From assembly GCF_003054705.1 (NCBI RefSeq), contig NZ_QAYX01000019.1, forward strand, positions 1 to 64,000: 64,000 bases of DNA, given 5' to 3'. The position numbers and the translations under genes are program-made. This DNA comes from Opitutus sp. ER46. GTDB lineage: Bacteria; Verrucomicrobiota; Verrucomicrobiia; Opitutales; Opitutaceae. This document shows, in pieces, positions 25,505 through 62,772 of the stretch (positions within the stretch are counted from its first letter, which is position 1; every line of letters starts with the position of its first letter). The notes under the pieces were generated by a model. The model saw only the letters and a list, made by a program, of their open reading frames with translations. It ran no database searches and was not told the origin of the DNA.

Positions 25505-25890
25505 CCCGCCACCCCGCCACCTCTTCCTCTTCCTCTTACTCTTACTCTTTCTCCCAGCCCCCAGTCGCCGCCGTACGACCCGTCCGCCCCCCGCGACCTC
25601 GCCGTCGCCTCAGCCCCCCGGTTCTCGTTCTCATTCTCGTTCTCGGCCGGCTCGCGCCGGCCGAGAGGACACCACGGGCTTTTCCGACCGATCGCACTGA
25701 TCAGACGGATCCGACTGATCAGTCCGATCCGTCCGATCCGCCCCAATCCGCCCGAAAGCCCCGTTGTGCTCGCTTGCCCGGTGCCCGACCGCTGCACCAT
25801 CGCCCAGCCGCCCCCCTCCGTCTTCGTCCCGCGAGGAATGCAGCTTGAGAGTAAGAGAAAGAGGAAGAGAAAGAGTAAGAGCACCCCGAC
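25505..25890. repeat. Modular intergenic repeat, copy A
   Basis: Fills the sucD-mtnA gap. A pyrimidine-rich arm (CTCTTCCTCTTACTC from about 25518) is matched by a purine-rich inverted arm (GAGAGTAAGAGAAAGAGGAA, 25848-25867, continuing to 25881). Between them lie GTTCTCATTCTCGTTCTC with a GGCCGGC/GCCGGCC palindrome (about 25622-25667) and GATC-rich blocks (GATCAGTCCGATCCGTCCGA, 25716-25735). The same modules recur in other gaps of this window. Confidence 0.75.
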
Positions 25891-27099: not shown

Positions 27100-27255
27100 G
27101 GTCTTTCTCTTACTCTTCGTCTTTCTCTCGCTCTCAGCTCACCGAGTCAGTGGCTCCCTCACTTTCACTCCGCAGGCGTTCTCGTTGTCGGCCGGTTTCC
27201 GCCGGCCTCACGGATCGAGAGAAAGAGTATGAGGAAGAGTAAGAGAAAGAGCTGC
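27100..27255. repeat. Modular intergenic repeat, copy B
   Basis: Between mtnA and the TPR gene. A pyrimidine arm TCTTTCTCTTACTCTTCGTC (27103-27122) and an inverted purine arm AGTATGAGGAAGAGTAAGAG (27226-27245) flank the shared segment TTTCACTCCGCAGGCGTTCT (27164-27183) and a CGGCCGG...CCGGCC palindrome. Confidence 0.75.
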
Positions 27256-35539: not shown

Positions 35540-35855
35540 GCCCAACTCTTTCTCTTACTCTTCCTCTTTCTCTTACTCTCGAGGGATTGAGGGATTGAGG
35601 GATTGAGGGATTGAGGGATTGAGGGATTGAGGGATTGAGGGCCGTCCCCCGATATCGCAGCCACTCCGTCCCCCATCTTCACTTTCACTCTCACTTTCAC
35701 TCCGAAGGCCGTTTTCGTTCTCACAGGAGCTCGCTGAGCTCGCAGAGAATTCGATCAGGAGATCAATCCTCCGGATCGACCTCTGCGCCCTCTGCGCGCT
35801 CCTGTAAGAACTGACTTGGGAGAACGAGTAAGAGTAGGAGCAAGAGAAAGACCGG
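35540..35855. repeat. Modular intergenic repeat, copy C, with (GGGATTGA)7
   Basis: Pyrimidine arm TCTTTCTCTTACTCTTCCTC (35548-35567), seven perfect GGGATTGA units (35583-35638), TTTCACTCCGAAGGCCGTTT (35694-35713), a CTCGCTGAGCTCGCAGAG/CTCTGCGCCCTCTGCGCG inverted pair (35729-35800), and a purine arm GAACGAGTAAGAGTAGGAGC (35822-35841). No gene. Confidence 0.85.
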
Positions 35856-36754: not shown

Positions 36755-37012
36755 CACACTCACTCTTTCTCTTGCTCTTCCTCTTTCTCATACTCTCACG
36801 GCGCGGGATTGAGGGATTGAGGGATTGAGGCCGCGTCCCAATCCGTTCCCCCGCATTCACTCTCACTTTCACTCCGCAGGCGTTCTCGTTCTCGTCACGG
36901 AGCTCACAGAGGCCGGAGGAGAACACGGAGGAATACCGGCACGACGCAGGTCTTCGCTCCGTGCCCCTCCTCCGATCTCGGTGCCCTCGGTGTCCTACCT
37001 GTTTCCGCGACG
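36755..37012. repeat. Modular intergenic repeat, copy D, with (GGGATTGA)3
   Basis: Pyrimidine arm TCTTTCTCTTGCTCTTCCTC (36763-36782), three GGGATTGA units (36805-36828), TTTCACTCCGCAGGCGTTCT (36864-36883), then the inverted block CACGGAG...AACACGGAGG (36896-36932) against CTCCGTGCCCCTCCTCCGAT (36957-36976). It occupies the whole thiD-thiF gap. Confidence 0.85.
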
Positions 37013-43879: not shown

Positions 43880-43954
43880 CTAGGTTTGGTATGTGGCCTC
43901 CTCCTGCCGCGCTCATCATTACCGAAGGTGCCAGCTCCCCGCTACTTGCAGCGG

Positions 43955-44055
43955 ATCCTGTTTTCCCTACGGCGGTGTTAAGCGCATCAGGTTCGAAGAC
44001 TTTAGGAGCGGAACGTGCTCCATTCTCAGCCCAGCGCCCCGGGCTCGCCTAAACG
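43955..44055 (-). ncRNA. TPP riboswitch (THI element)
   Basis: On the minus strand, upstream of thiC: GGGGCGCTGGGCTGAGAATG, then CGAACCTGATGCGCTTAACA and CGTAGGGAA (43962-43970). These are the conserved CUGAGA and CCUGAU...GCGUAGGGAA boxes of the THI element. A CCGCTgcaagtAGCGG hairpin follows (about 43937-43953), probably part of the expression platform. Thiamine pyrophosphate should repress the thiC operon. Confidence 0.96.
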
Positions 44056-44224
44056 AGGTGACGGGTAAGAGGCACCCCGACGTCGGAATTTTCAAATCAA
44101 AATTGTGGCGTACACCGGCCGCGGGCCGCTGCCGCCGGCCCAACCTCCTCCACGCGAATAGCAACCGAGCGGCGAAATGCCAGCGCGGTCCTTATGACAA
44201 GTTATGTCGAAAAAAGTCTGGACC

Positions 44225-54263: not shown

Positions 54264-55244
54264 TCAGCTCAACAAGGCTCCGCGAAGCGGTCGCAAGCCG
54301 GCGATTTCACCCCAGCCGGGGTCCGGCAGGTCGTGACGCTTCACGCGGTGGGTCAGGCTGTGCTTCGTCCGGTACGCCGCGACGTGCCCGTCGACGAATT
54401 CCCGCCCACCCAGGACCACTCCCTCGCTGAAATACCGGATCCGGCAGCGGAGCACATCGGGCAGGCTCAGTTTTCCTCCGGCCTCCACCGCGGCCCGTAC
54501 CTGCTCGGCGGGGAGCGAGGCCTTCCCCTCGCGCGGCGCGCCGCCGCTCGTGAACAGCAGCAGCCGATAACTGCACTGCGCCTGCTCCCAGTTTCCACCC
54601 ACCACCGACTGCAGGCCTTGGCGCGCGGGGACATGACCACTCACCGCCTCGGCATACCCGCAGAACCGGTAGTCCTTCGGATCCTTCGAGATTCCGGCGC
54701 GGACGCAGTTGAGATCGATATACGCCGCCACCGTCTGGACGACCCGCTCTTTGCCCTCGAGCAACTGACTCTTGAACCGATCCGCCCACACGGGTCCAAA
54801 CCGCCGATGTCGGGCGTTGTACCAGATCGAGAAACGCTCCTTCAGCAGCTTCATGTACTGAGATACATCGTACATCAACGCCCGCTGCCGCTCGCGCCAC
54901 GCCTCCGCGGCGGGGGTGTTCGCCGCCAGCCCGGCCCGGATCACCTCCAGCCGCGCAACTTGGTGCTTGGTCGGTTTCGGATAAAGCACCGCGTAGCGCC
55001 GGAGCAGTTCCGCGTCCGAGAGCTCCGGTCGCTGCGGCACCCGCACCAGCAGATGGAAGTGATTCGACATGATGGCGTAGGTGAGGATCTCAACCCCGGC
55101 GAAGTCTGCCACCTGCCACATCTGCCGCCGCAGGATCTCCTTGGCGGTCGTGCCAAACATCCACTCCCCGTTCACCGTCCGGCTGATCAGGTGGTACACG
55201 CCCGGCTCCCGCTCCGAGTTCACTTTGATCCGTGCGCGCCGCAT
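54264..55244 (-). CDS. REP-associated tyrosine transposase (RAYT), copy 2
   Basis: 326 residues, almost the same as the protein at 1454-2434; differences seen by eye include SEREPG for SELEPG, TKHQ for TKYQ, AEAWRERQ for AEAWRKRQ and SGHVPARQGL for SGQARARQGV. HUH motif SNHFHLLV and GPVWADRFKSQLL are intact, so it should be active. The flanks share the same motifs: GGGGACGGACATGTTC repeats beyond the stop, and CCATTTGCGTGTCTGTCCCC before the start. Two near-identical copies 53 kb apart show recent mobility, unusual for RAYTs, which are normally single-copy. Confidence 0.92.
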   Translation of the reverse strand: MRRARIKVNSEREPGVYHLISRTVNGEWMFGTTAKEILRRQMWQVADFAGVEILTYAIMSNHFHLLVRVPQRPELSDAELLRRYAVLYPKPTKHQVARLEVIRAGLAANTPAAEAWRERQRALMYDVSQYMKLLKERFSIWYNARHRRFGPVWADRFKSQLLEGKERVVQTVAAYIDLNCVRAGISKDPKDYRFCGYAEAVSGHVPARQGLQSVVGGNWEQAQCSYRLLLFTSGGAPREGKASLPAEQVRAAVEAGGKLSLPDVLRCRIRYFSEGVVLGGREFVDGHVAAYRTKHSLTHRVKRHDLPDPGWGEIAGLRPLRGALLS

Positions 55245-57249: not shown

Positions 57250-57670
57250 GGCGAATCGTTCTCGTCACAGAGCACACGGAGACCGGAGGAGGACACGGAG
57301 GAAAACCGGCCGGGGATTCGCTCCGTGCCCCTCCTCCGATCTCTGTGGCCTTCGTGTCCTGCCCGGAAGGATCGAGGGATTGAGGGATTGAGGGATTGAG
57401 GGATTGAGGGATTGAGGGATTGAGGGATTGAGGGATTGAGGGATTGAGGGGCGTGCCACTCAGCGGCTCGCCACCTTCACTTTCACCTTCACGCTCACTT
57501 TCACTCCGAAGGACGTTCTCGTTCTCTCGGAATCGATCTCGTTCTCTCAACCCGCGGTTCGCAGAGCGTACGCGAGGGCCATGGCGCAGAGGCGATGGAG
57601 GAGCGGACGGGCGGACGGAGACGGAGTTTGGGAGAGTAAGAGGAAGAGTAAGAGTAAGAGAAAGAGCCTG
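57250..57670. repeat. Modular intergenic repeat, copy E, with (GGGATTGA)9
   Basis: Inverted block CACACGGAGACCGGAGGAGG (57270-57289) against CTCCGTGCCCCTCCTCCGAT (57321-57340); nine perfect GGGATTGA units (57376-57447); TTTCACTCCGAAGGACGTTC (57499-57518); and a purine arm GAGAGTAAGAGGAAGAGTAA (57632-57651). Non-coding; fills most of the 600-base gap between tatC and the pseudokinase gene. Confidence 0.85.
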
Positions 57671-62599: not shown

Positions 62600-62772
62600 T
62601 ATTTTTGACAGCAGGTGCGGCGCGCCGGGGAGCAGCCGAGTGGCGTGATCCGGCAGATCAGTCCGATCAGTCGGATCGGTCCGATCGGTCGGATCACCCG
62701 GCCTCTGACATCTGACCTCCGACATCTGCCATCTGGCCTCCGGCGCAGGCGCGGTCGGCGCCTGCGGGCGGG
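62600..62772. repeat. GATC-rich degenerate repeats before gmd
   Basis: GATCCGGCAGATCAGTCCGA (62647-62666), then CAGTCGGATCGGTCCGATCG and GGTCGGATCACC, followed by CATCTGACCTCCGACATCTG (62710-62729) and further CATCTGGCCTCCGG. GATC/CCGATC units also occur at 25688-25745 in repeat copy A. Within a 252-base gene-free gap between valS and gmd. Confidence 0.6.

Follow-up and report, generated by a model that had tools for sequence, protein, structure and literature searches.

A mosaic intergenic repeat family in Opitutus sp. ER46 with G-quadruplex-type octamer arrays that face one way relative to strand skew

It has long been an open question how intergenic repeats that carry no genes manage to spread, and several described systems bear on the repeats reported here. 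Quadruplex-forming repeats with the units GGGAATC and GGGGA(C/T)T are known from Xanthomonas and Nostoc (Rehm et al. 2015, PMC4692102), and in the available sections of that paper a leading or lagging strand preference is reported to be absent for the GGGAATC repeats of Xanthomonas. REP and REPIN sequences are mobilised by RAYT transposases and occur genome-wide as extragenic, hairpin-forming inverted doublets with a spacer. In P. fluorescens, five tandem REP arrays near 2 Mb are forward and six near 4 Mb are reverse (both from Bertels and Rainey 2011, PMC3116915), which by analogy may be taken as a partial precedent for replichore-dependent orientation. Insertions of IS200/IS605 and Tn7 follow the direction of replication, according to the available part of a review (PMC5371812). 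Intrastrand triplex motifs, as they are defined by Holder et al. 2015 (PMC4666352), place purine and pyrimidine segments, together with spacers, on a single strand.

The repeats that we found in the draft genome of Opitutus sp. ER46 resemble each of these systems in part. With the Xanthomonas and Nostoc repeats they share short G-rich tandem units, a mostly intergenic location, many copies and G-quadruplex potential. They differ from the heptamers in having the octamer GGGATTGA as their unit, in the complete polarity of that octamer, and in possessing hexamer arms and a core, neither of which is reported in the available sections of the paper (PMC4692102); given the unit (an octamer and not the heptamer GGGAATC) and the polarity, classification as a Xanthomonas-type G4 repeat was rejected. 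Like REP/REPIN, they are extragenic, many-copy inverted hairpin doublets (both arms are present in 36 of the 66 arm clusters found in 800 kb). Their orientation is coupled to replication, as in IS200/IS605 and Tn7 (octamer arrays 26:0), but those elements are autonomous and have genes, whereas the copies examined here are gene-free and no end signals were identified in them. The arms place purine and pyrimidine segments in one strand, like the triplex motifs in the accessible text of Holder et al. (PMC4666352), though unlike those they are interrupted at variable positions, which carry A or G. Neither this family nor a comparable polarity of intergenic G4 repeats came to light in full-text searches of openly licensed papers.

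The window, which is the whole 64,000-nucleotide stretch analysed, covers the first 64 kb of contig 19 in a genome of 5.71 Mb and 25 contigs. A first-pass annotation had proposed that five of its intergenic gaps draw on the same modules, and each of the five does hold modules where they had been placed. A full copy runs from a pyrimidine arm of CTC-TTN hexamers through (GGGATTGA)n, a linker, a CACTYT array with the core, a CGTTCT array and a dyad to a purine arm. In the fullest copies the arm reads TCTTTCTCTTACTCTTCCTCTTTCTC and is joined by a CTC[GA]A junction to (GGGATTGA)n and the linker. The CACTYT array, of which the core is the terminal part, ends in CACTCCGAAGG, and to its right the CGTTCT array is followed by a CACGGAG/CTCCGTG dyad and then by the purine arm. 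The arms are degenerate hexamer arrays (CTC-TTN) in a fixed frame. Within the hexamer, the C, T, C and second T are 97-99% invariant, T fills one further position in 86% of units, and at the sixth A, T or C is found and G is rare; these figures come from arms located solely through the adjoining octamer (22 of the 26 arrays had an arm, and one of the four misses lay at a contig end). The octamer array is a G-quadruplex-type motif and ranges from 2 to 13 G-runs. Partial copies are common, right ends are variable, and the dyad precedes the octamers in some copies (57266-57450 in the window, and stretch L175). In the 800 kb in which arm clusters were counted, a purine-then-pyrimidine order occurred in none of the 66, and the loop of 27 had no BLAST similarity to any other cluster.

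The five copies, delimited from the sequence and all given on the plus strand, differ in content, in line with the earlier statement that not every copy has every module. The first (25505-25890) has a pyrimidine 5′ arm of CTC-TTN hexamers (25520..25553), CGTTCT/CATTCT units (25621..25645) and a purine 3′ arm (25848..25884), and has neither octamer nor core. A tandem GATC(A/C)G-type array with period 9/18 lies inside it at 25686-25738, and another was seen at 62656-62696. The second copy (27100-27255) combines a degenerate pyrimidine arm (27102..27134), the core CACTTTCACTCCGCAGG (27160..27176), CGTTCTCGTTGTC with CGTTCT-type units at 27177..27189, and a purine arm (27218..27252). The third (35540-35855) has a pyrimidine 5′ arm (35545..35579), an array of GGGATTGA with eight G-runs (35583..35641), a G-quadruplex-type motif that strand skew places on the C-rich strand, a CACTYT array with the core at its end (35678..35708), CGTTTTCGTTCTC with CGTTCT-type units at 35710..35722, and a purine 3′ arm (35820..35851). 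In the fourth (36755-37012), a pyrimidine 5′ arm (36762..36796) is followed by a short octamer array with three G-runs (36805..36823), a CACTYT array with core (36858..36880), CGTTCTCGTTCTC (36881..36893) and the dyad CACGGAG..CACAGAG / CTCCGTG..GTGTCCT (36896..36996), and the 3′ arm is missing. The fifth (57250-57670) lacks the 5′ arm and begins with the dyad (57266..57360), after which come an octamer array with ten G-runs and a G-quadruplex-type motif (57376..57450), a CACTYT array with core (57472..57512), CGTTCTCGTTCTC (57514..57526) and a purine 3′ arm (57633..57667). As judged from module order, such mosaics fit the assembly by recombination suggested in the first-pass annotation; that reading misses the common direction of the polar modules relative to replication.

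The family is far larger than these five copies. The copy at 35540-35855 had 82 BLAST matches genome-wide, many of them fragments of one copy. Searching the genome with single modules, as had been recommended, confirmed a many-copy family: the core 14-mer, allowing at most one mismatch, was found in 53 places against 1 for the reversed control, and a 20-base octamer pattern, allowing at most two mismatches, in 184 places against 1. The arm pattern gave 799 places against 656 for a control that is unusable, because the reversed CTCTTN pattern matches part of the same arrays. A 400-kb tile of contig 19 held 22 arm clusters. Over 800 kb, 109 of 117 arms lay outside genes as called by our simple gene caller, and about 13% of bases lie outside such genes in the 400-kb tile; some of the 8 arms inside predicted genes may reflect false gene calls. 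The modules therefore are not scattered at random, inside genes too, at the rate expected from base composition. They exist and are not chance, and the description of a modular, mostly intergenic family with complementary arms holds. We assign it to the intergenic mosaic-repeat kind. Within the same 800 kb, an element was present in 35 of 245 tandem, 17 of 89 divergent and 5 of 61 convergent gaps, fractions that are not genome averages since 20 of the 40 stretches had been picked around BLAST hits. Contigs C14, C16 and C21 end in, or a few hundred bases from, repeat copies; some copies thus seem to have interrupted the draft assembly, which makes the counts lower bounds.

Outside this species the polar modules are almost absent. 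The core 17-mer occurred 24 times in this genome and in none of 199 other genomes of its taxonomic family, and the octamer 19-mer had 154 matches here and was present in only two of the 199, with 2 and 1 matches. Among 26 other genomes of the genus, the exact arm pattern was present in 4; hairpins of a like hexamer kind were present in 5, with a reversed control of zero throughout. In a collection of 84,980 genomes, which may omit the window's own and very near genomes, the core had 40 single matches against about 60 expected by chance, and none of the 40 was accompanied by an arm within 1 kb or by an octamer pair. A wider occurrence of the core was rejected, as these matches are not above chance. 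A sister species of the same genus (G203; stretches L263-L282) has an intergenic hairpin family of its own, CTCGTTCTCGTAATCGTTCCTCGTTCTCG..CGGATTGAGAGAACGAG, with 46 matches (control 0). The loop is CGGATTGAGAG in many of its copies, which is near the octamer and the CGGATCGAGAG junction of the present genome, and by this resemblance the octamer array may have grown from a G203-like loop.

Orientation was scored in 80 stretches from 14 contigs, amounting to 1,598,000 bases or 28% of the draft genome of this one species. They comprised a 400-kb tiling of contig 19, 20 stretches chosen around BLAST hits and 40 across contigs 23, 24 and 25, several of the latter sited on known core matches. Picking stretches that hold an element favours neither orientation. 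The strand was assigned per contig by third-position GC skew, taken as plus-strand minus minus-strand genes, which removes the effect of transcription. Octamer arrays with at least three G-runs were on the C-rich strand in 26 cases and on the G-rich strand in none, with agreement in 14 of 14 contigs (p = 3e-8). With raw skew per stretch and a looser pattern, 27 arrays agreed, one was in a stretch with flat skew (contig 24, +0.012) and two disagreed, the two dissenters being mixed arrays with a single GGGATTGA among GGGARTGA units. Counted as intergenic loci by replication polarity, the octamer was 24:0, CGTTCT 30:5, the core 37:9 and the dyad 12:1, and the octamer GGGARTGA ran in the opposite sense (0:4). 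Loci without a nearby octamer leaned the same way (core 25:8, CGTTCT 16:4, dyad 6:1). Junctions with one octamer unit were polar (7:0), as were those with two units (2:0) and with more (15:0), so it is whole elements that seem to be oriented, and not long arrays alone. In classes defined by our own patterns, the GGGATTGA junction was found at 30 of 90 5′ arms and at none of 63 3′ arms, and the CGATCC/CAATCC-type junction at 14 of 63 3′ arms and at none of 90 5′ arms.

Two causes of the octamer polarity were rejected. One is gene direction, as the octamer ran with the genes in 9 cases, against them in 4, in convergent gaps in 3 and in divergent gaps in 5, with 3 ambiguous. The other is strand composition, as a G-rich octamer on the C-rich strand opposes the bias of the other G4-type motifs, which favour the G-rich strand 207:41, whereas those formed by the octamer favour the C-rich strand 35:2. 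For some CACTYT arrays gene direction may matter: 15 of 46 intergenic core loci preceded a start codon by at most 80 nt, in the sense of the gene, 11 with and 4 against replication polarity. CACTYT and CAYTCCCT arrays were often seen directly upstream of start codons, in gene sense (L050 ~4906, L196 ~17587, L098 ~1106). The hairpin family of the sister species showed no significant polarity (13 of 20 stretches, p = 0.26) in what is a weak test, using raw skew of single stretches of 11-20 kb.

In most bacteria the G-rich strand is the leading strand. If it is taken as leading here, the octamers, being on the C-rich strand, would have their G-runs on the leading-strand template; the polarity relative to skew is itself observed. 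No match to 16S rRNA was found in the assembly by a search that also missed 5 of 14 control genomes, so that its absence is not firm, and the leading-strand call consequently rests on GC skew and one operon, that of ribosomal protein L14, in a draft genome. L14 is on the plus strand of contig 23, which is the G-rich strand once transcription is corrected for (R = +0.114). The 20-kb stretch around it, in which every predicted gene is on the plus strand, nevertheless has a negative raw skew (-0.225), and the first 20 kb of this contig resemble the opposite replichore. Coding bases are slightly biased to the G-rich strand (717,189 vs 641,229). A candidate KOPS-like motif of this genome, GGGNAGGG, is biased to the G-rich strand 226:45 in the 80 sampled stretches.

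The polarity suggests that the replication machinery places or keeps the copies. Our preferred reading, which we hold tentatively, is that of a non-autonomous, hairpin-flanked mosaic repeat that spread through single-stranded DNA at forks, in either of two forms, with its arrays lengthened by slippage. New copies would enter, or be copied, via single-stranded DNA at the fork (the lagging-strand template). Either an HUH (Y1) transposase would act on them in trans, or stalled forks would allow the template to switch from one repeat to another. Arrays of short units would then grow and shrink by slippage, giving the observed range of G-runs. Since the polarity belongs to whole elements, one-unit copies included, it points to an orientation set at entry or copying and not by array stability alone. 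Among described systems, those that behave in this way, such as IS200/IS605 and Tn7 (PMC5371812), go by way of single strands or of clamps at the fork. The variable right ends and the unique loops suit template switching better than a fixed-end transposon, and template switching at forks would also yield mosaics of a single polarity. Against fork-coupled spread, polarity is not strict at core and CGTTCT loci and is not significant in the G203 family.

Y1 transposases had 13 matches in the genome, 12 of them above the cut-off, and the two Y1 proteins of the window scored 56.5 and 54.6 bits against the REP-associated model, for which the cut-off is 80. Two Y1 genes are on the minus strand at 1454-2413 and 54264-55199, with GGGGACGG-type repeats nearby, and a 283-base tandem duplicate at 942-1511 (94% match), containing AAAGGGGACGGACATG in each copy, adjoins the first of them. 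A RAYT gene is flanked by its own repeats, and the REP/REPIN sequences of RAYT transposases reportedly possess a conserved tetranucleotide tag, e.g. GTAG or CGTC, at one end. Here, unlike in REP/REPIN, the arms are degenerate hexamers combined with octamer arrays and their G4 motif, the RAYT-like genes had no flanking modules at any of the 8 Y1 loci examined out of 13, and no tag was found at the arm feet, the best 4-mer occurring in 42 of 153 outer flanks (GTAG in 11, CGTC in 17). REP/RAYT pairs are defined by tag and gene linkage, and with no tag, and no linkage at the 8 loci examined, the family was not accepted as half of such a pair. A cut-and-paste MITE was rejected on target-site duplications, since among 50 paired elements 4 had one of at least 5 bases against 3.4 expected from shuffled pairs, 3 against 1.0 had at least 6 bases, and the mean length was 2.14 against 1.79 (sd 0.24). 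Absence of a target duplication is expected for HUH insertion, and equally if there was no insertion.

Orientation-dependent stability of repeats is established in general, and copies might arrive both ways, those whose G-rich or hairpin arrays fall on the lagging-strand template being deleted in replication, so that what remains has its G-runs on the leading-strand template. For the octamer the polarity is indeed complete, against a weaker one for the core and CGTTCT, and core loci facing the opposite way are mostly without an octamer (8 without, 1 with). We nevertheless consider such differential survival unlikely, because one- and two-unit junctions, which form no quadruplex alone, are still 9:0, and because GGGARTGA lies on the opposite strand and general G4-type motifs favour it, so that G-runs are not excluded from that strand. 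A polar chromosomal signal, in which selection for a role in replication, fork pausing or segregation fixes the direction of the octamer or the element, would likewise account for complete octamer polarity, but seems improbable in a family that is near species-specific and varies in copy number and module content. KOPS, the FtsK polar octamer, is a G-rich octamer on the G-rich strand, scattered singly along the chromosome. The present arrays are on the wrong, C-rich strand, opposite to the bias of GGGNAGGG; the octamer accordingly does not look KOPS-like, and its identity with KOPS was rejected.

That the repeats act as RNA, through terminators or mRNA-stabilising 3′ structures, appears highly improbable to us. 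The predicted RNA fold of one copy, 35540-35855, is very stable (-142.7 kcal/mol, z = -6.0 against shuffles), and some copies lie a few tens of bases from a stop codon or directly after a terminator. But octamer orientation ignores the genes, and convergent gaps are not favoured, for which reason a terminator role was rejected. Arms within a copy do not covary either (identity 0.821 within copies vs 0.814 between copies, z = 0.7, 49 pairs), and selection for pairing was rejected as what keeps the hairpins. The earlier suggestion that transcripts could fold into long hairpins agrees with the predicted fold of this one copy, which is far more stable than shuffled sequence; maintenance of each individual hairpin is not supported.

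Returning to spread at the fork, G-rich arrays that all face one way point to the fork as a site of entry or of weeding out, and the coexistence of one-unit and many-unit copies makes oriented insertion and orientation-dependent array stability directly testable against each other. It is possible, if rather doubtful, that this is a gene-less mosaic element with a telomere-like G-quadruplex array which enters or persists in one fork-relative orientation only, and so is a natural reporter of fork direction. The family would also mark the direction of replication in this species' draft genomes. A search of the whole window against Rfam 15 at gathering score returned as its sole match a TPP riboswitch away from the repeats (43947-44060, minus strand), barely above that score.
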